From Nocardia sp. NBC_01329 (lineage in GTDB: Bacteria > Actinomycetota > Actinomycetes > Mycobacteriales > Mycobacteriaceae), in NCBI RefSeq assembly GCF_035956715.1, contig NZ_CP108381.1, positions 1,612,001 to 1,676,000 on the forward strand: a stretch of DNA of 64,000 bases. Reading direction: 5' to 3'. This document shows, in pieces, positions 13,339 through 21,459 of this stretch (within the stretch, counting starts at the first letter, position 1; each line of letters starts with the position of its first letter). The translations under genes and the position numbers were made by a program. The notes beneath the pieces are model-generated. The model was not told the origin of the DNA. It was given only the letters and a program-made list of their open reading frames with translations, and ran no database searches.

Positions 13339-13857
13339 TCAGAAGAACCAGTGCTCGGGTTCGCTTCCGTGTGGCACGATGCTGCTGAAGTTGCCGCGGA
13401 AGAATCCGAGTGCTCCGCCTTCGCGTGAGCAGAGATCTCGGACGGCGCCGAAGACGACTGTGTGGTCGCCGGCTTCGACAACCCGCTCGACGTCACAGTC
13501 CAGGTGAGCGAGAGCATGCGGAACGACCGGTACTCGATGACCGTCGTATTCGAGCCCGAGGCCGGCGAAGTGGTCCTCTCCGCGCTGAGCGAAGCGTAGA
13601 GCGATGGTCTGCTGGCGGCTCGACAAGATGTTGACCGCGAACCGCCCGGCCGCCACCACCGCGTCGGCACTGCGAGCTCCGCGGTTGAAACAGACCAGCA
13701 GCAGGGCCGGCTCCAGGGAGACGGAGGTGAGCGAGTTGATGGTCATGCCGTGCGGAACGCCGTCCGATTCGGTGGTGACCACGGCTACGCCGGTGGCGAA
13801 CCTGCCCATCGTTCTGCGCATCGCGGAGGCGTCGACGGCCAGCGGTGTCATTGTCAT
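13339..13857 (-). CDS. Flavin reductase, HpaC-type partner of the monooxygenase
   Basis: A 172-residue flavin reductase-like protein: RRTMGRFATGVAVVTTE, PHGMTINSLTSVSLEPALLLVCFN (flavin contact segment) and ERVVEAGDHTVVFGAV, all standard for HpaC/ActVB-type NAD(P)H:flavin oxidoreductases. It should supply reduced flavin to the HpaB-type oxygenase two genes upstream. The ATG at 13857 overlaps the cupin stop as ATGA and is preceded by GAGGAG, so the pair is translationally coupled. It is the last gene of the operon. Confidence 0.92.
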   Translation of the reverse strand: MTMTPLAVDASAMRRTMGRFATGVAVVTTESDGVPHGMTINSLTSVSLEPALLLVCFNRGARSADAVVAAGRFAVNILSSRQQTIALRFAQRGEDHFAGLGLEYDGHRVPVVPHALAHLDCDVERVVEAGDHTVVFGAVRDLCSREGGALGFFRGNFSSIVPHGSEPEHWFF

Positions 13858-14216
13858 CCTTCCTGCTCCTCGGGCGCCGGATAGCGGACTTCGAAGGTCA
13901 GCACGCCTTCGTCGGAGCGCCAAGGTCCGTGCGGCATACCCGGTGGCCGGCAGGCGTACTGACCCGCGCTGAACGTTCGATCGAGGCTCAGGTCCACGAA
14001 TGAGCCCTCGAGGATATAGACCTCCTCCCAGAAATCGTGGCGCTGAACGCCCATCGGGGTGGAGTCGGCGCCGGGTGCGTAGCGAAGGATCCGAGTGGCG
14101 ATGCCTGTCTGCGGGTCCTTACTCAGAATCCGCTCGGTGATCAGCGGGTCGCCACCCGGACAGATGGTGAATCCGATGTCACTGACCGGAAAGAATTCGA
14201 ACTCCGGTTTACTCAT
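13854..14216 (-). CDS. Small cupin, possibly a metal-dependent enzyme
   Basis: A 120-residue single cupin. The metal-binding positions look intact: QRHDFWEEVYILEGSF (His, Glu, Glu) and PPGMPHGPW (second His). The N-terminus (MSKPEFEFFPVSDIGF) and the C-terminal FEVRYPAP strand complete the barrel. Start and stop overlap both neighbours by 4 bp (ATGA), so it is made in step with the oxygenase and reductase. It may be a small dioxygenase or isomerase acting on the oxygenated product, or a binding protein; the sequence does not decide. Confidence 0.82.
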   Translation of the reverse strand: MSKPEFEFFPVSDIGFTICPGGDPLITERILSKDPQTGIATRILRYAPGADSTPMGVQRHDFWEEVYILEGSFVDLSLDRTFSAGQYACRPPGMPHGPWRSDEGVLTFEVRYPAPEEQEG

Positions 14217-15691
14217 GCCGACACCTCGCCCAGTTCGGCTACCGGCAGGTCCGAGACACCATAGGAGGCCAGGAACCGTTCGACCGTGCGTAACGAGCCG
14301 GCGTAGTCGAAGTTGCGGAACGCGTAGCCCTTCACGACGAATGGGGCACCGGCGTAGAAGAGTTCGTACTGCTGATGGCGGCCTGCGAATTCGCTTCCGA
14401 TGGCGTCCCAGGCGAGTTTGAACAGTTTCACTCGTTCGACGGCTGAAATGTCGGGGCTGCTCACGTATCGGTCCATATCGTCGCGAGTCGGCTCGCCGAT
14501 GAGCTCGTTGACACTCGACGGCACCTGCAGCACGCCACCGCCTGCGAGGTCGCGCACGATTTCGATCACCCGCGGGTGGATCTCGGATTGCAGGCCCATC
14601 GCGCCGTACAGGGATCCGGCGCCCGGCCTCCACAGCCCCTGTTCGTCCGGTGCTGCGGTATGTTCGGCGGCGAGTACCCCGGATTCCACGATGGAGACCA
14701 GTCCCGCGAGTTCACCGAGTTTCTCGACGACGCCGGGGAACTTGTCGACGCCGTTGACCGCGGCGATCTTACGGGCGATCCCCGCCAGGAACTTCAGCTT
14801 CGTCGCGAACCGGATCTGAGCCTGCCAGTTACCGAGTACGTGGGCGCCGGTGTCGAAGAACTGCTTCCGCAGCCCCGGCACATCCTTGTAGACGAAGACA
14901 TTCTCCCACGGGATGAACACGTCGTCGAACACCAGCAAGGCATCGGTCTCGTCGTAGCGAGAACTGAGCGGATAGTCGAATTCACTCGTCACATTCGGGG
15001 CATACGGCCGTCGGCAGTAGAGCTTCAGCCCGGTCGCACCGACGGGGACCGTGAAACTGATCGCGAAGTCGGAGTCCTCGTCCTGCAGGGGTTTGATACA
15101 GGAGACCAGGATCTCGTCGGCGACCGCACCTCCGGTGGCGAGCATCTGAGCACCGCGGACCACAATGCCGTCCGCCCGCTCCTGCTTCACTCCCACCTGG
15201 ATGAACTCGCCTTCCCAAGCATGCGCGGTGGTAGCGCGCGAGACTTGTGGCGGGATGATCGCGTAGGAGACATAGAGGTCGTTCTCGACGACTCGGCGGT
15301 GGAAGGCCAGAACATTGTCGCGGAGCCCGCGTTCTGCCGAGAACGCCTCGGGATGCAGCGAGAACGCGGAGACGAAGGCGCCGACATGATCGGGCGAGCG
15401 GCCCACCCAGCCGTGAGTGTGGTCGGCCCAGACCTGGGCCGCGGTGCGGTATGCCTCGAGGTCCGCCGCGCTGCGCGGTGGCAGGAACAGCCGGTTGACG
15501 GCGCGCCCGGTCGTCTCGTCGCTGACCTGCATCCCGTTGTACGGGTCGGCGGCGAGGTCGAACAGGTCGCCGATCGTTCGGGCGATCGGCGCGAACGCCG
15601 GGTGGTCGGCGACATTGCCCACCGGCACGCCGTCGACGATCACCTGACGGCCGTCGTCCAGTGCGGATAGATAATCGGTACCGGTGCGCAT
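14213..15691 (-). CDS. HpaB-type FADH2-dependent aromatic monooxygenase, large component
   Basis: A 492-residue group D flavin monooxygenase of the 4-hydroxyphenylacetate 3-monooxygenase/PvcC family. Seen: the N-terminal MRTGTDYLSALDDGRQVIVDG signature, the central PPQVSRATTAHAW region (~176-188), FAISFTVPVGATGLKLYCRR, FDDVFIPWENVFVYKD (~273-288), and the helical C-terminal domain with LGELAGLVSIVESG and GGGVLQVPSSVNEL. Such enzymes hydroxylate phenols, or attack N-heteroaromatics (pyridine, pyrrole carboxylates), using FADH2 from a partner reductase, here encoded two genes downstream. It overlaps the DUF2848 stop (TGATG) and has AGGAG before the ATG. The substrate is unknown. Confidence 0.93.
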   Translation of the reverse strand: MRTGTDYLSALDDGRQVIVDGVPVGNVADHPAFAPIARTIGDLFDLAADPYNGMQVSDETTGRAVNRLFLPPRSAADLEAYRTAAQVWADHTHGWVGRSPDHVGAFVSAFSLHPEAFSAERGLRDNVLAFHRRVVENDLYVSYAIIPPQVSRATTAHAWEGEFIQVGVKQERADGIVVRGAQMLATGGAVADEILVSCIKPLQDEDSDFAISFTVPVGATGLKLYCRRPYAPNVTSEFDYPLSSRYDETDALLVFDDVFIPWENVFVYKDVPGLRKQFFDTGAHVLGNWQAQIRFATKLKFLAGIARKIAAVNGVDKFPGVVEKLGELAGLVSIVESGVLAAEHTAAPDEQGLWRPGAGSLYGAMGLQSEIHPRVIEIVRDLAGGGVLQVPSSVNELIGEPTRDDMDRYVSSPDISAVERVKLFKLAWDAIGSEFAGRHQQYELFYAGAPFVVKGYAFRNFDYAGSLRTVERFLASYGVSDLPVAELGEVSA

Positions 15692-16368
15692 CAGCTGCTC
15701 CTGACAGTTACGTGGTAGTTGAATTCGATAGGCGCGTGACCGGGGACTTCGAGGCTCATACGCCAGTGTTCTCCGTATCGGAAAGCCCCGTCGAGCAACG
15801 GCATGGTTCCGCCGAAGAGGACCAGTTCGGATGTGTCCGCGGCCGGTCGGCCCCATGCGGTGAGGAGGTGGCCGATCGGCAGCACCGAAGCCAGGTTTCC
15901 CTCCTGGTAGAGGTCACCGTCGACCCAGCAGCGCGCCAGGATGTCATCCCATTCGACGATGCTCGGGTCGCTCCCCAAGTCGATGAGTGTGGATGCGATC
16001 GGCTTCGGGCATGCGGCTTTCGAGAGCTGGATGCTGCGGGTTTCGATCTCGCGATCGGTGTGGTCGGAGCCGACGGTGAGGTAGTAGCGGTGGCCGGCGT
16101 ACAGGAGGACCGGTTCTACCTCGCCGGACGTCGATGCCCCGTCGACCTCGATCGCGGCCTCGGTCGTCAGCCGGTCGACAGCGAGTTCGTAGAACGCGGG
16201 AATGCTCTCGGGCCGCGGTACCCCGATGGCAGCGAGCTCGTCGACATGGTGTTCGACCGCGGCGGAATCTCGTCCGGTGTAGCCTCCCACGATGAATCTG
16301 GTGGGGGTGAAGGCCAGTGGCTGCCCGGAGTCGGTCCGCAGGTGGAGCCGAGTGGTACTGGTGGTCAT
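15691..16368 (-). CDS. DUF2848 protein, fumarylacetoacetate hydrolase-like fold
   Basis: A 225-residue DUF2848 protein. Family features seen: FIVGGYTGRDSAAVEHHVDELAAIGVPRP near 30-58, a SGEVEPVLLYAG strand, VGSDHTDREIE (acidic residues suited to metal binding) and the terminal GEHWRMSLEVPGH segment. The fold resembles fumarylacetoacetate hydrolases, which cleave acylpyruvate-like C-C bonds or hydrate dienoates. The ATG at 16368 follows GGAGGG and overlaps the amidase stop (ATGA). Its place between a nitrilase-type amidase and an oxygenase suggests action on a ring-opened oxo-acid (inference). Confidence 0.85.
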   Translation of the reverse strand: MTTSTTRLHLRTDSGQPLAFTPTRFIVGGYTGRDSAAVEHHVDELAAIGVPRPESIPAFYELAVDRLTTEAAIEVDGASTSGEVEPVLLYAGHRYYLTVGSDHTDREIETRSIQLSKAACPKPIASTLIDLGSDPSIVEWDDILARCWVDGDLYQEGNLASVLPIGHLLTAWGRPAADTSELVLFGGTMPLLDGAFRYGEHWRMSLEVPGHAPIEFNYHVTVRSS

Positions 16369-17180
16369 GAGCCCTCCACTGATGGCGATCCGATGACGGG
16401 CCATCGGCGGTCCGCCAATGCCGGGAATTCGGCGCGCACCCGCTGCGGCAGCGTCGGGTCGAGGTCGGCGAAGGTGAAACCTTCGTCGGCGCCGGCTTCG
16501 ACCAGCACTTCCCCCCAGGGATCCACGATCCGGCTGTGGCCGCCGAGGGCCACTCCCTGTTGTTCGCCCACGGCGTTACAGGCCAGCATCCACGACTGCT
16601 GTTCCACGGCGCGGACGCTGGTGAACAGGCGCCAGTGGTCCAGGCGGGCAGCAGGCCAGGCCGCACATACGGCCAGCAGCTCCGCACCCGAATCGGTGAG
16701 ACTGCGGAACAACTCCGGGAACCGCAGGTCGTAGCAGGTGGTGATACCTGTGGGTAGCCCGGCGACAGGGTCGACGGTCACCGTCGTGCCCGGCGTGAGC
16801 AACTCTTGCTCACGGGAGCCGTAACCGAAGACGTGCACCTTGCGGTATGTGCTCCGGACAGAGCCGTCGGGGGCTACGACCACGGACGTGTTGTACAACC
16901 GGCCGAGCTCGTCGATCTCGACGATGCTGCCGAGATGCACGGATACGTGCAGAGCTGCCGCCCAATCCCGAGCGGCTGTCACAGTCGGTCCGGTGAGCGA
17001 CTCGGACATCGCGGGATAGTCGTCGAACGCGAAGTATCCGACGTTCCACAGCTCGGGCAGGACCAGCAGATCCACCGCCCGCAACCCGGACTCACGGCCG
17101 ATCGCGGCGTCGACGCGATGCAGCCGTGCGGTCACGGACTCGTCGTCCGGACTCGCGATTTGAAACAGTGCTACGCGCAT
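16365..17180 (-). CDS. Carbon-nitrogen hydrolase (nitrilase superfamily amidase)
   Basis: A 271-residue member of the nitrilase superfamily with the full triad: Glu in VLPELWNVGYF (~43), Lys in YRKVHVFGYGS (~113) and Cys in TTCYDLRFPELFR (~148). The segment around GHSRIVDPWGEVLVEAG matches omega-amidase/Nit2-like members more than true nitrilases. It would hydrolyse an amide, releasing ammonia, in the cytosol. ATG 17180 is the natural family start. It overlaps the DUF2848 start by 4 bp. In this operon an amide-cleaving step implies that the substrate, or an intermediate, contains nitrogen. Confidence 0.92.
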   Translation of the reverse strand: MRVALFQIASPDDESVTARLHRVDAAIGRESGLRAVDLLVLPELWNVGYFAFDDYPAMSESLTGPTVTAARDWAAALHVSVHLGSIVEIDELGRLYNTSVVVAPDGSVRSTYRKVHVFGYGSREQELLTPGTTVTVDPVAGLPTGITTCYDLRFPELFRSLTDSGAELLAVCAAWPAARLDHWRLFTSVRAVEQQSWMLACNAVGEQQGVALGGHSRIVDPWGEVLVEAGADEGFTFADLDPTLPQRVRAEFPALADRRWPVIGSPSVEGS

Positions 17181-17244
17181 AGCGCAACTCAGACCTTTCT
17201 GGATGGCAACCGAGGACGGCACGCGAGCCGGTGACAAGCGGTGG

Positions 17245-18012
17245 TCACCGGAACTCGCGTCCGGGCGGTGTGCCGGCATTGCGCAGGTGGGCAACGAGTT
17301 CGTCGTTGAATCGCTGCCCGATGCGCTGCACCGCGTGCGGGCTGCCCTCGAAGACGACACGCTTTGCCGACAGTGCCTCGGCCAGGGCATCGGCGACATC
17401 CTCGAAACCGGGGGTACCGCCACCGGTGACGACGAGCTTGGGAAACGTCGTCTTCGACAGTTTCTCCAGCGGAACACCTGTATCCCAGGGCCTTTCGGTG
17501 GTCAGGTTGCTCAGTGCCTCGGCGAGAGGAGCCGGCAGCGGCGACGGCAGTGCCATATCGACGCCGAGCACCCGGAGGAAACCTTGCCCGAAGGACTCCA
17601 GGTCGGTTGTATCGGCCGTATCCCAGTGCATACGTAGCGCGGCGGACAGGTGGTCCGCCGCGGGCCGGCCCGCGCCGTTGGGGAGGGCGGGTGGTTCGAT
17701 CACCGTGAGCGACCAGACCTTGTCCGGGGCGAGGGCGGCCGCCCGCAATGCCACGACACCACCCATCGAAGTTCCGACGAGGTGGGCACCGTCGCCGAGC
17801 AGCTCGGCGATTTCGGCCGCGTCCCGGTCCGGATCGATTTTCGGCGTACCGGGACTCGGACTGTAGCCACGCCGATACGGCGCGATGATCTGGAATCGGT
17901 CGGCCAGCACACGCTGCTCACCGAACGCGGCAGCGGCCGAGTTCAAGCTGCCGTGCACCATCACGATGCGGGGTCCGGAGCTACCCCACCGCTCTGCAGC
18001 AAGTTCGGACAT
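17245..18012 (-). CDS. Alpha/beta hydrolase of the catabolic operon
   Basis: A 255-residue alpha/beta hydrolase: oxyanion segment IVMVHGSLNS, nucleophile elbow GTSMGG (Ser ~82), catalytic His in GSPHAVQ near residue 227. GGGAG lies 7 nt before the ATG. No signal peptide. Enzymes of this type in heteroaromatic pathways include N-formylmaleamate deformylase (NicD) and ester/lactone hydrolases. Beside an amidase and an HpaB-type oxygenase, a role in cleaving a formamide, ester or C-C bond of an intermediate is inferred. It is separated from the downstream amidase by 64 bp and from the upstream gene by 14 bp. Confidence 0.9.
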   Translation of the reverse strand: MSELAAERWGSSGPRIVMVHGSLNSAAAAFGEQRVLADRFQIIAPYRRGYSPSPGTPKIDPDRDAAEIAELLGDGAHLVGTSMGGVVALRAAALAPDKVWSLTVIEPPALPNGAGRPAADHLSAALRMHWDTADTTDLESFGQGFLRVLGVDMALPSPLPAPLAEALSNLTTERPWDTGVPLEKLSKTTFPKLVVTGGGTPGFEDVADALAEALSAKRVVFEGSPHAVQRIGQRFNDELVAHLRNAGTPPGREFR

Positions 18013-18026
18013 CGTCGTCTCCCTTC

Positions 18027-18467
18027 TCACTGCTGCGAGGCCGCGGCGGCCTCGGCCTCTGCCCGCGCGAACACACCACGATCGATGTCCAGTCGGCGTG
18101 ACTTGAACTTCCACCCCTCGCTGGTACGTACGGCGATATCTGTGTAGATACCGGACGCGATGATGAACGGTGGCTTCTCGACCTGCAGTTTCGTGACCGC
18201 GCTGGTGACAGTCGCGGTATCGCCGTCTCCGTTGACGACGTAGTTCGTCATCAAATGCCGGGCGCCGTCTTCTTTGCCGGCGGTGATATGGCCGTTGATG
18301 AACTCCCGGATGGCCTCGTGTCCGACGAAAGTGCCATAGGTGGCGACGAACTCCCCTTCGGGGATCCATGCGCCCACCCAGGCATCGACATCGTGGTTGT
18401 CGAGCGCCCTCATCTGCGTGTTCGACAGCTTGATGATCGCCAATTCATCTGCAATGGGCAGGGACAT
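18027..18467 (-). CDS. SnoaL/NTF2-like protein, first gene of the catabolic operon
   Basis: A 146-residue NTF2-like cone-fold protein of the SnoaL-4 type: LSNTQMRALDNHDVDAWVGAW, WIPEGEFVATYGTFVGHEAI, then beta strands ending in GWKFKSRRLDIDRGVFA. Relatives include ring-hydroxylating dioxygenase beta-like subunits, ketosteroid-isomerase-like enzymes and polyketide cyclases. No dioxygenase alpha subunit is present here, so an isomerase or lyase role is more likely. AGGAG precedes the ATG by about 9 nt. As the first gene behind the regulated promoter, it probably belongs to the same pathway. Confidence 0.88.
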   Translation of the reverse strand: MSLPIADELAIIKLSNTQMRALDNHDVDAWVGAWIPEGEFVATYGTFVGHEAIREFINGHITAGKEDGARHLMTNYVVNGDGDTATVTSAVTKLQVEKPPFIIASGIYTDIAVRTSEGWKFKSRRLDIDRGVFARAEAEAAAASQQ

Positions 18468-18510: not shown

Positions 18511-18542
18511 ACACTACGACACTAGTATTCGGTATACAAGTG
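18511..18542 (-). promoter_or_regulatory. Promoter of the catabolic operon with overlapping GntR-type operator
   Basis: On the minus strand, TTGTAT (18539-18534) and TAGTGT (18516-18511) are separated by exactly 17 bp, a good sigma-A type promoter with a start expected near 18504, about 37 nt before the SnoaL-like ATG. An imperfect palindrome spans 18520-18542 (outer CACT/AGTG, inner GTAT/ATAC), covering the -35 box and spacer. It is the only palindrome in the divergent region and fits an operator for the adjacent FadR-family repressor. Binding is inferred. Confidence 0.65.
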
Positions 18543-18586
18543 TGTGGCGTGTGGAATCTGGAATACAGGGCTGGTAGCCTGTGAGC

Positions 18587-19240
18587 ATGGCGAGATTGGG
18601 CGGCATCACGGCGGTTGAACGGCCACCGACACTTGGTCGGCGCGCCTACCTGCAGATCCAGCAAGCGATCAGGGATGGCAGCCTCACCCACGGTGAGCAG
18701 TACTCCGAGAACGAGCTGGCCGAATCGCTCGGCATGTCGAGAACGCCCGTCCGGGAAGCACTCCTCACGCTCAATCGTGAAGGAATCATCACCGTCGAGT
18801 CCCAGCGCGGGTTCCGGCTCCGTGAATTGTCCGAGGCCGAGCGCCGCGAGATCTTCGACCTGCGATCACTACTCGAGAGTTTCGTGGCGAGCCGACTGGC
18901 ACTCAACGCCACAGCCGACGATATCTCGCGGCTGCGCGGGCTCGTCGACGCACAAGAAGGCCTCGGTGAGGGACAGCAATCGGAGTTCCTGGCGCTCGAC
19001 GAGCAATTCCACCTTCTCCAGTCCGCGACACTCGGCTTGGAACGCACCCACTCGACGATGGTCGGCCTACGTGGGGCTATGTGGCTCATCGGATTCGAGG
19101 CACTAAAGCTTCCACGCCGCTACGCGGCAGTCGTGGCAGAGCATCGCGCCATCGTCGATGCCATCGAAGCCGGCGATCCCGAACGTGCGGCCGAAGCGGC
19201 ACGCGAGCACCTCGCGAACACCGCTGCCGTTTCCCTCTGA
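18587..19240 (+). CDS. GntR-family (FadR/FCD subfamily) transcriptional regulator
   Basis: A 217-residue GntR regulator. The winged HTH is at ~15-80 (RRAYLQIQQAIRDGSL, then YSENELAESLGMSRTPVREAL) and the helical FCD effector domain follows (EIFDLRSLLESFVASRLAL; ALDEQFHLLQSATL; VVAEHRAIVDAIEAGD with likely metal-binding Asp/His residues). It is divergent from the seven-gene operon and probably represses it through the palindrome at 18520-18542 until an acid intermediate binds. No ribosome site is visible; TAGCCT at 18575-18580, 7 nt before ATG 18587, suggests a leaderless mRNA. A GTG at 18581 is the alternative start. Confidence 0.92.
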   Translation: MARLGGITAVERPPTLGRRAYLQIQQAIRDGSLTHGEQYSENELAESLGMSRTPVREALLTLNREGIITVESQRGFRLRELSEAERREIFDLRSLLESFVASRLALNATADDISRLRGLVDAQEGLGEGQQSEFLALDEQFHLLQSATLGLERTHSTMVGLRGAMWLIGFEALKLPRRYAAVVAEHRAIVDAIEAGDPERAAEAAREHLANTAAVSL

Positions 19241-19730: not shown

Positions 19731-20915
19731 TCAGGATTCGAACAAGGCCTGGCCGATGTACTCGCCGGGCCCCCCGGCTCCCGGCGGAATCACGAAAACC
19801 GCCGAGCCGACCGGCGTCGTCCATACGTTCAACGCGTCGAACTCGGCCAGCCGCCGCTGGACCGGAAGGAACTGGGTCGGCAGATCGCGCTGGTAGGCGG
19901 TGAAGAGCAGACCCGAGTTCGAGATTGCACCGGCCGCCGGGGCATCGTCGTAGTTGTAGCCGCGCCGGTGGAATCGTTCACCCTCGTGCCGGTGGTGGGC
20001 GCGAGCGATATGCGACGAGGGCGGGATGACCGCGATGCCGTTGGTATCCACCGCCGCGAAATCCGGTTCGTCGAACTCGCTGGCGCCGGTCAACGGCGCG
20101 CCGGTGGCCAGGGTGCGGCCGACGGTGAGTTCCCTTGCCGCCGGATCGATTTCGTCCCAGGTGTCCAGAGTCATCGCTATCCTGCGCAGCACCATCGAGG
20201 TGCCGCCGGCGAGCCAGGGGCGTGCGGCCCCGTCGTCCCAGACCAGCCGATCGAAATCCGAGGCGGCGATATCGGCGGTGCCGTCCAGTTGGCCCATCAG
20301 ATTCCGCGGTGTTCCCGGTGCCCCGTCCCGGAATCCGCGCTGGACCCAGCGCACCGACAGCAGCGAGCGCACGCTCCGGCACAACACCCGCACCGCGTGT
20401 GCGACCGTCGTCGATTCCCCGGCGCATACCTGCAACAGCAGATCCCCGCCACAGAAGGCGGGGTCGAGCCGGTCGATCGGAAACGGCGGCAACGGTGCCA
20501 GCCACGGCGGGCGTTCGGCTTCGAGCCCGCAACGTTCGAATACACCGGCCCCCAGGCCGACCGTGACGGTGAGCCGAGCGGGGCGCAAGGCCAGTTCCGG
20601 TTCGGTATCGGCGAGCGCGGGGCGGCCCTGGGTCAGGCGAGCGGCGTCGCCGGTCCAGATCCGAAGGGCTCCGACGAGGTCGTCGCGAGTCGTCCCGGGA
20701 CGCAGGTCCATGGCTAAGAAAACCGCCCGGGCCTGCGGAGCGGTTGCGATTCCGGCCTGGTGTGCGCCGTAGAACGGTTCGGCTACCGGTCCGCCCGCAT
20801 CGGTATCACGCAGCACGGCCGAGGTCGCCGCGCCGACCCCGAGGCCCACCGCGCCGGCGGCGCCACCGCCCAGGAAGCGACGCCGGTCGAAGCGGGGCCT
20901 GTCGTGTTCAGCCAC
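19731..20915 (-). CDS. Tat-exported DyP-type heme peroxidase (DtpA/EfeB-like)
   Basis: About 394 residues. A twin-arginine signal (DRRRFLGGGAAGAVGLGVGAA, ~10-30) marks export of the folded protein. DyP features: the GxxDG motif GQLDG with distal Asp211, probable proximal heme ligand His302 (SSHIARAH), and RRGYNYDD (~317-324) with the conserved Arg. It should use H2O2 to oxidise bulky donors, or act in heme/iron or copper handling, outside the membrane. GTG 20915 was chosen; it overlaps the PCu(A)C stop by 8 bp. The operon order (membrane protein, copper chaperone, DyP) resembles the ecuC-dtpA locus of Streptomyces lividans. Confidence 0.93.
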   Translation of the reverse strand: MAEHDRPRFDRRRFLGGGAAGAVGLGVGAATSAVLRDTDAGGPVAEPFYGAHQAGIATAPQARAVFLAMDLRPGTTRDDLVGALRIWTGDAARLTQGRPALADTEPELALRPARLTVTVGLGAGVFERCGLEAERPPWLAPLPPFPIDRLDPAFCGGDLLLQVCAGESTTVAHAVRVLCRSVRSLLSVRWVQRGFRDGAPGTPRNLMGQLDGTADIAASDFDRLVWDDGAARPWLAGGTSMVLRRIAMTLDTWDEIDPAARELTVGRTLATGAPLTGASEFDEPDFAAVDTNGIAVIPPSSHIARAHHRHEGERFHRRGYNYDDAPAAGAISNSGLLFTAYQRDLPTQFLPVQRRLAEFDALNVWTTPVGSAVFVIPPGAGGPGEYIGQALFES

Positions 20916-21459
20916 CGTGCGCGGGCGGTCGGGCCCCGCCGTCGGGCCGATAGTCCTCCTGGTTACCGGAGAAATCACGCACCTGCGCGGTGAAAGTGGT
21001 GGTGGAACCGTCCGAGAAGGTCAGGGTGACCGGAGCGTCCGTTCCCGTGCGCAGCGCATCACGCAGGTCGATGAACATGATGTGCTCCCCGCCGGGGGCC
21101 AGTTCCAGTTCGCCGTGGGCAGGGATGACGAAACCGCCTGTCTTCGGCCGCATGAACTTCGCGCCGCCACCGTCGGTGGCGACTTCGTGTAATTCGACGG
21201 TGGCGGATACGGGACTGCTCGCCGAGGCGACGGTGACCTCGTGCTCACCGGAGTTGCGAAGCCGGCCGAATGCAGCCGACATCCCGCCGTCGGCGGCCTT
21301 GGCCCACTGATCGGTGATCGTCACCGAATCGGCGGCGGTGGACGGTGCGCTGCTCCCGGAGGAACAGGCGATGGCGAAAAGTGGTGCCGCGGCCGCCGCG
21401 GCGACCACGCGCAGAATTCTGGTGGCGCCGGTACGGGGCGTTGGAAGACGAAGTGACAC
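20908..21459 (-). CDS. PCu(A)C-type copper chaperone lipoprotein
   Basis: A 183-residue exported protein. The signal peptide ends in LFAIACSS, a lipobox-like site with Cys ~32, so membrane anchoring is likely. The domain holds the PCu(A)C copper-ligand pattern: HEVATDGGGAKFM, then AHGELELAPGGEHIMFID, giving the His-Met-His-Met set. It would carry Cu(I) outside the membrane to cuproenzymes such as cytochrome oxidase or radical oxidases. It overlaps the DyP peroxidase gene (8 bp), implying joint function in metal or peroxide handling at the cell surface. GTG start at 21459. Confidence 0.92.
   Translation of the reverse strand: MSLRLPTPRTGATRILRVVAAAAAAPLFAIACSSGSSAPSTAADSVTITDQWAKAADGGMSAAFGRLRNSGEHEVTVASASSPVSATVELHEVATDGGGAKFMRPKTGGFVIPAHGELELAPGGEHIMFIDLRDALRTGTDAPVTLTFSDGSTTTFTAQVRDFSGNQEDYRPDGGARPPAHGG

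Follow-up and report, generated by a model that had tools for sequence, protein, structure and literature searches.

A conserved HpaB, cupin, DUF2848 and amidase gene core in Nocardia and a candidate route for N-heteroaromatic acids

What compound is broken down by a cell that groups an HpaB-type flavin monooxygenase with a nitrilase-superfamily amidase, a small cupin and a protein of the family DUF2848, and which of the genes around them belong together? The question is raised by a locus of Nocardia sp. NBC_01329, in a stretch of 64,000 nucleotides (contig NZ_CP108381.1, positions 1,612,001 to 1,676,000; hereafter the window), where seven minus-strand genes occupy positions 13339-18467 next to a divergent GntR/FCD regulator gene. 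Comparison across genomes points to five of the seven as the recurring unit, and we favor, with a rough probability of 0.58, an operon that serves the breakdown of a small carboxylic acid with an N-heteroaromatic ring (or one that forms a lactam). A sequence-only reading of this DNA had named the seven genes and their families; the coordinates proved right, and every named family was matched by Pfam.

18581..19240, plus strand: divergent GntR/FCD regulator (FCD 2e-25, GntR 3e-17)
18522..18540, minus strand: operator-like motif CTTGTATAC-N4-TACTAG, kept in 8 aligned intergenic regions
18027..18467, minus strand: SnoaL-like (NTF2 fold) protein, 146 aa, accessory (SnoaL_4 5e-23)
17245..18012, minus strand: alpha/beta hydrolase, 255 aa, accessory (Abhydrolase_6 1e-13)
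16365..17180, minus strand: CN-hydrolase (nitrilase superfamily), omega-amidase-like, 271 aa, core (CN_hydrolase 2e-43)
15691..16368, minus strand: DUF2848 protein, predicted FAH fold, 225 aa, core (DUF2848 3e-54)
14213..15691, minus strand: HpaB-family FADH2-dependent monooxygenase of a distinct subfamily (R98/H102/Y143), 492 aa, 53.5 kDa, core (HpaB_N 1e-86, HpaB 3e-59)
13854..14216, minus strand: small single-domain cupin with a His60/Glu64/His96 site, 120 aa, core (Cupin_7 4e-9)
13339..13857, minus strand: HpaC/HsaB-type flavin reductase, 172 aa, 18.4 kDa, core (Flavin_Reduct 6e-41)

The junctions, from the SnoaL gene to the reductase gene, measure +14, +64, -4, -1, -4 and -4 bp, so that the packing earlier described as mostly 1- to 4-bp overlaps holds at four of six, the other two being gaps of 14 and 64 bp. 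The host genome, a single contig of 6.42 Mb, has one DUF2848 gene and a single strong HpaB_N match, the operon HpaB; a second match is weak (20.7 bits) and under the family cut-off.

Conservation of a five-gene core

Judged from gene content across genomes, the evolutionarily conserved unit is made up of the five genes for the CN-hydrolase, DUF2848, HpaB, the cupin and the flavin reductase. Identities and counts come from sampled collections. In a sample of 300 genomes of the same family, an HpaB of 63–68% identity was found in 12 and one of 44% in one further genome, and DUF2848 adjoins the operon-type HpaB in all 13 family-sample genomes in which that protein is at least 63% identical, the window's included. 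Eleven of the 12 neighborhoods were read, and each contains the five core genes in one and the same order, from CN-hydrolase through DUF2848, HpaB and cupin to reductase, with the CN-hydrolase clipped by a contig end in one; the cluster is absent from the locus with the 44% HpaB (L033). A scan of genome contigs gave 80 named loci besides the window (81 in all, with contig-end-clipped loci counted), of which 76 hold the cupin, 73 DUF2848, 69 the CN-hydrolase (>38% identity), 67 the reductase and 58 all five. The search for gene order in other genomes that the sequence-only reading had called for found the one-strand order Nit-DUF2848-HpaB-cupin-HpaC in 53 loci, which, together with DUF2848 beside HpaB in 13 of 13 genomes, argues that the arrangement is not due to chance. 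All seven genes of that reading are present in the window; as a conserved unit, the seven gave way to five, the SnoaL and alpha/beta hydrolase genes being variant-specific (8 of 81 loci).

The core was found in Actinomycetota, Bacillota, Planctomycetota, Verrucomicrobiota, Pseudomonadota (on plasmids of Paracoccus, Burkholderia, Caballeronia, Roseateles and Thioclava), a Terriglobia metagenome-assembled genome (Acidobacteriota) and archaeal metagenome-assembled genomes, a distribution that appears patchy over at least six bacterial phyla and archaea. Because gene order differs among phyla, with GntR-HpaB-Nit-DUF2848-cupin as a Bacillota example, the association is functional and goes beyond inherited synteny alone. 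The nearest HpaB relative found is that of Nocardia panacis (87%), and a phylum-wide sample added no genome at E<=1e-130, indicating a rare and patchy cluster. An Embleya locus (L114) was uninformative: besides a GntR gene and a CN-hydrolase of 63% identity, no further core gene was detected there within 9 kb.

Core enzymes, substitutions and neighbors

The window HpaB has full-length HpaB_N and HpaB domains and a reductase partner, which places it among HpaB-type two-component flavin monooxygenases in the broad sense. A tree built from the window, cluster, control and PDB proteins (the three PDB references, taken from printed alignments, being not quite full length) puts the cluster HpaBs in a single clade with a support of 0.999, which also takes in the proteins of L033 and of a Rhizobium locus, both without the core, while TftD, two HpaB structures and seven control sequences fall outside. 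The phylogenetic check proposed earlier thus sets the protein apart from characterized phenol hydroxylases, with pyridine and pyrrole enzymes outside the comparison. The PDB references, all phenol hydroxylases, have Arg/Tyr/His at three positions that we take to hold the phenol in HpaB structures, in contrast to Arg98/His102/Tyr143 in the window and its clade, where position 102 is His in 80 of 80 sequences and position 143 is Tyr in 79 of 80. Compared with the HpaB/HpaC 4-hydroxyphenylacetate 3-monooxygenase and TftD (group D), the window system shares the HpaB_N/HpaB domains, a separate HpaC-type reductase and the R98 equivalent, whereas its HpaB lies in a separate clade, has His/Tyr for Tyr/His and scores under the equivalog cut-offs (HpaB-1, 299 vs 480 bits; HpaB-2, 277 vs 885 bits), and its core has no catechol dioxygenase. 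With this score and this altered site, it does not class as a 4-hydroxyphenylacetate or chlorophenol hydroxylase, and the generic annotation of the subfamily as "4-hydroxyphenylacetate 3-hydroxylase" is probably wrong. No DUF2848/amidase core accompanies the control HpaB genes outside the clade, and at three of these control loci there are catechol-type ring-cleavage dioxygenases. On a plasmid of Rhizobium sp. ACO-34A (L130), a His/Tyr-signature HpaB sits beside L-asparaginase and polysaccharide-deacetylase genes, with no cupin or DUF2848 annotated nearby; it may work with another amide-hydrolysis partner.

The best PDB match of the CN-hydrolase is mouse NIT2 (3e-31), an omega-amidase, and Glu43, Lys114 and Cys149 are conserved. 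The protein is 36.5% identical to the CN-hydrolase beside dhpH on pAO1, and outside the cluster nicotine-plasmid homologues (36–37% identity) have the highest bit scores among the plasmid matches listed; the nit gene of the pAO1 nicotine cluster is named an omega-amidase (PMC10494377). By its fold, its Glu-Lys-Cys triad and its nearest characterized relatives, which are omega-amidases, the CN-hydrolase would belong to the omega-amidase type (NIT2/MtnU/pAO1 Nit). In the Paracoccus, Caballeronia, Roseateles and Thioclava loci an amidase-signature amidase takes its place, and the cupin and DUF2848 are kept where the amidase fold changes. The strongest indication that the pathway cleaves an amide is this exchange between two unrelated amidase folds.

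A sequence search with DUF2848 gave no PDB relative. Its structural model (predicted local distance difference test, pLDDT, 94.8; predicted template modeling score 0.92) had FAH-family proteins as its top Foldseek matches (TM up to 0.68, probability 1.0), which assigns it a predicted FAH fold, a fold used on 2-oxo acids. Glu83, Glu85, Asp102 and Lys117, candidates for the metal-binding acidic residues and the lysine of the FAH superfamily, are invariant among 56 sequences. Elsewhere, five same-family genomes carry a second DUF2848 island (L119 3820-7412, L120, L121, L122 and L123) with DUF2848, MFS, GntR and CN-hydrolase genes, the last encoding proteins 31–33% identical to the window's; HpaB and cupin were not detected in the five loci read. 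DUF2848 is therefore not exclusive to the operon, and the second island is possibly a minimal DUF2848-amidase pathway. In the cupin, His60, Glu64, Glu65 and His96 are invariant among 55 sequences, and the model (pLDDT 94.0) matches TM1459, KdgF and Dke1-type small cupins, with TM1459 and KdgF the closest. Because the cupin keeps a His-Glu-His metal site, the earlier statement that the operon has no ring-cleavage dioxygenase is uncertain; the small cupin could be one.

A plasmid of the haloarchaeon Natrinema gelatinilyticum (L115/L117) carries a CN-hydrolase (50%), the cupin and DUF2848. Within 49 kb HpaB went undetected, and the same stretch has XdhC, CoxG and molybdenum-hydroxylase genes; that a molybdenum hydroxylase stands in for HpaB there is suggestive only. 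HyuA/HyuB genes, of the hydantoinase/oxoprolinase A and B type, adjoin the core in two Peribacillus loci and one Prauserella locus, in two phyla (L104 1631-6851, L105 and L035), the Peribacillus HyuA being nearest to caprolactamase and under its cut-off (564 vs 1000 bits). Five loci have an isochorismatase-like hydrolase, five Bacillota loci an FAD synthetase and six loci a UbiD gene. The Neobacillus UbiD matches 6h6v/6h6x, which we take to be HmfF, a furan-2,5-dicarboxylate decarboxylase, far above other families (494 bits, next family 216). Structure 6H6V is listed among UbiD structures in a paper that cites the HmfF work (PMC8379154). As a general clue to the substrate the UbiD neighbors were set aside, only the Neobacillus one being clearly HmfF-like and the Pseudonocardia one not. 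In that Neobacillus niacini locus (L102 735-7537), genes for a TRAP-type transporter, a thiamine pyrophosphate enzyme, the HmfF-type UbiD and a UbiX-like flavoprotein immediately precede the core and share its strand. We treat all such neighbors as clues, not proof.

A candidate pathway and its alternatives

An N-heterocyclic or cyclic-amide substrate is favored indirectly by the amidase fold swap, by the molybdenum hydroxylase where HpaB is absent and by the caprolactamase/hydantoinase-like, isochorismatase-like and HmfF-type UbiD neighbors. In the pathway that we propose, the flavin reductase would supply FADH2, with which the HpaB-family oxygenase would hydroxylate the ring next to the nitrogen, and the hydroxy-heterocycle would tautomerize to a lactam. 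The cupin and the FAH-fold DUF2848 protein would turn the lactam, by opening or rearrangement, into an open-chain 2-oxo acid with a terminal amide; if the ring opens at the other side of the nitrogen, the amide would end up on the oxo-acid, giving a substrate of the omega-amidase type. The omega-amidase-like CN-hydrolase, or the amidase-signature amidase in Pseudomonadota, would hydrolyze the amide, with NH3 and a dicarboxylic 2-oxo acid as products. The range would be widened in the window's variant by SnoaL and the alpha/beta hydrolase, and GntR would repress the operon until the substrate is present. The catabolic operon and the amide-hydrolysis step of the sequence-only reading were retained, in contrast to its seven-gene unit and its "NicD-like" hydrolase. 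Its view that the pathway has no named counterpart also stands: in the literature searched, with most subscription journals outside the coverage, no named pathway has this gene set and no paper names DUF2848.

Pyrrole-2-carboxylate is the best single guess at the substrate, and a doubtful one. It would pass through 5-hydroxypyrrole-2-carboxylate and 2-hydroxy-5-oxoproline/2-oxoglutaramate to 2-oxoglutarate and NH3. The pyrrole-2-carboxylate system of Rhodococcus reportedly yields 2-oxoglutarate and ammonia. 2-Hydroxy-5-oxoproline is the cyclic form of 2-oxoglutaramate (PMC6302742), and a two-component pyrrole-2-carboxylate monooxygenase of Rhodococcus is on record (Becker 1997, cited in PMC6165268); we liken the operon to it hypothetically. 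The sizes of the window HpaB and reductase (53.5 and 18.4 kDa) would fit such a pair and prove nothing by themselves.

Several points weigh against the favored N-heteroaromatic acid. The substrate is deduced from sequence, and no member of the set is known here as biochemically characterized; the pyrrole-2-carboxylate link is a hypothetical one that comes from a cited title. The CN-hydrolase scores well under curated equivalog cut-offs, and its nearness to omega-amidases leaves the substrate unfixed. The Natrinema molybdenum hydroxylase lies ~6 kb from the trio and may be unrelated. Finally, with hydantoinase genes in 3 loci, an HmfF-type UbiD in 1 and the other UbiDs of different types, the neighbors point to no single substrate.

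An unlikely alternative is that HpaB/HpaC makes a dihydroxy compound from an amino- or amide-bearing aromatic, which an iron-dependent cupin cleaves with O2 before DUF2848 processes the product, as in gentisate and homoprotocatechuate pathways, and the amidase removes the amide. The invariant His60/Glu64/His96 site, a fold like that of small cupins including acetylacetone and dihydroxyacetophenone dioxygenases, the position of FAH proteins after ring cleavage in known pathways and the usual action of HpaB-family enzymes on phenols all agree with it. However, the best cupin matches, TM1459 and KdgF, are not ring-cleaving dioxygenases, the Tyr/His pair of the phenol site is altered in the clade, and the cupin is retained at the HpaB-free Natrinema locus. 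It is quite improbable that the ring of an N-heteroaromatic compound is cleaved by HpaB/HpaC itself, as oxygenases of the two-component type reportedly do with pyridine and alkylpyrazines, and that the CN-hydrolase takes the acyl group off the resulting N-acyl or N-formyl enamine, leaving the oxo-acid to the cupin and DUF2848: the CN-hydrolase is closest to omega-amidases and the core has no aldehyde dehydrogenase, although a flavin oxygenase with an amidase is the arrangement of pyridine and alkylpyrazine pathways and the clade has a distinct active-site signature. We consider it very unlikely that this is an ordinary phenol-type hydroxylase operon whose amidase and FAH-like genes would deal with a side chain that is nitrogen-free or an amide. 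Phenols are the usual substrates of HpaB/HpaC pairs, and genes for BenE or organic-acid transporters are found close to some loci, but the clade stands apart from phenol hydroxylases, the control loci differ from it in the gene content described above, and the window core has no canonical ring-cleavage dioxygenase.

Known systems resemble the operon in part. The uracil Rut pathway is analogous in its flavin monooxygenase, RutF-like reductase, amidohydrolase and alpha/beta hydrolase, whereas RutA is not of the HpaB family and the window reductase falls far short of the RutF cut-off (76 vs 255 bits). In the nicotinate Nic pathway (NicD, NicF), ring opening is followed by amide hydrolysis to NH3; the operon, in contrast, has no NicX, and its alpha/beta hydrolase, missing from most loci, gave weak generic matches, none of its PDB matches being named NicD and the best being an uncharacterized hydrolase (1.4e-9). 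The dhpH product of pAO1 is, we presume, a different, single-component hydroxylase. As in the window, a flavin hydroxylase adjoins a nitrilase-superfamily omega-amidase, there for 2-oxoglutaramate, in the lower nicotine pathway of pAO1 (PMC10494377; Cobzaru 2011), with hydrolase and cyclase-like partners beside dhpH/Nit; however, the Nit proteins are 36% identical and the pAO1 stretch read has no DUF2848 or cupin partner. In lumichrome catabolism, the small cupin LumY acts on a ring-opened oxo-acid and LumV is an FAH gene with no assigned role (PMC12746152); this pathway uses P450, xanthine-oxidase and Rieske chemistry with no mention of HpaB/HpaC, and was rejected as a match for its lack of HpaB. 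Skatole monooxygenase was rejected as a group E enzyme, not HpaB, and the iac clusters for indole-3-acetic acid were set aside, the paper on them giving no cupin, FAH or DUF match.

Regulation, transport and implications

Two architectures occur in Actinomycetota, one with an MFS organic-acid symporter in many loci and one with SnoaL, the alpha/beta hydrolase and a divergent GntR in the window and seven others (L044, L046, L049, L051, L052, L057 and L071). Among these eight the alpha/beta hydrolases are 70–81% identical, and the seven others have GntR orthologues (64–83% identical) at the same divergent position. Their intergenic regions share, with slight variation, CTTGTATAC-N3/4-TACTAG, and the GntR regulator is presumed to be dedicated to the operon. 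Across the 80 loci, a GntR gene is present in 64 and an MFS organic-acid symporter in 42; transporters near some loci are of the organic-acid MFS or benzoate type. Transport in trans is possible in the host, since its genome has eight MFS relatives elsewhere (31–45% identity). The flanking PLD-like, AlkZ-like, DyP peroxidase and PCuAC genes bear no relation to the operon; past the GntR gene, at 19731-21459 on the minus strand, the DyP-type peroxidase and PCuAC copper chaperone genes adjoin each other.

Somewhat short of even odds, we entertain an unnamed and widespread route that starts with the oxidation of an N-heteroaromatic acid by a new HpaB subfamily (Arg/His/Tyr) and goes on to ring opening by the cupin and DUF2848, without a canonical ring-cleavage dioxygenase. 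The compact module, present in several bacterial phyla and archaea, holds a domain of unknown function, and if the route is real, DUF2848 would gain its first function. Should the substrate be pyrrole-2-carboxylate, the operon would supply the genes so far lacking for an enzyme activity that was purified in the 1990s. A substrate for the HpaB subfamily would give it a function, and might give one to an orphan biochemical pathway as well.

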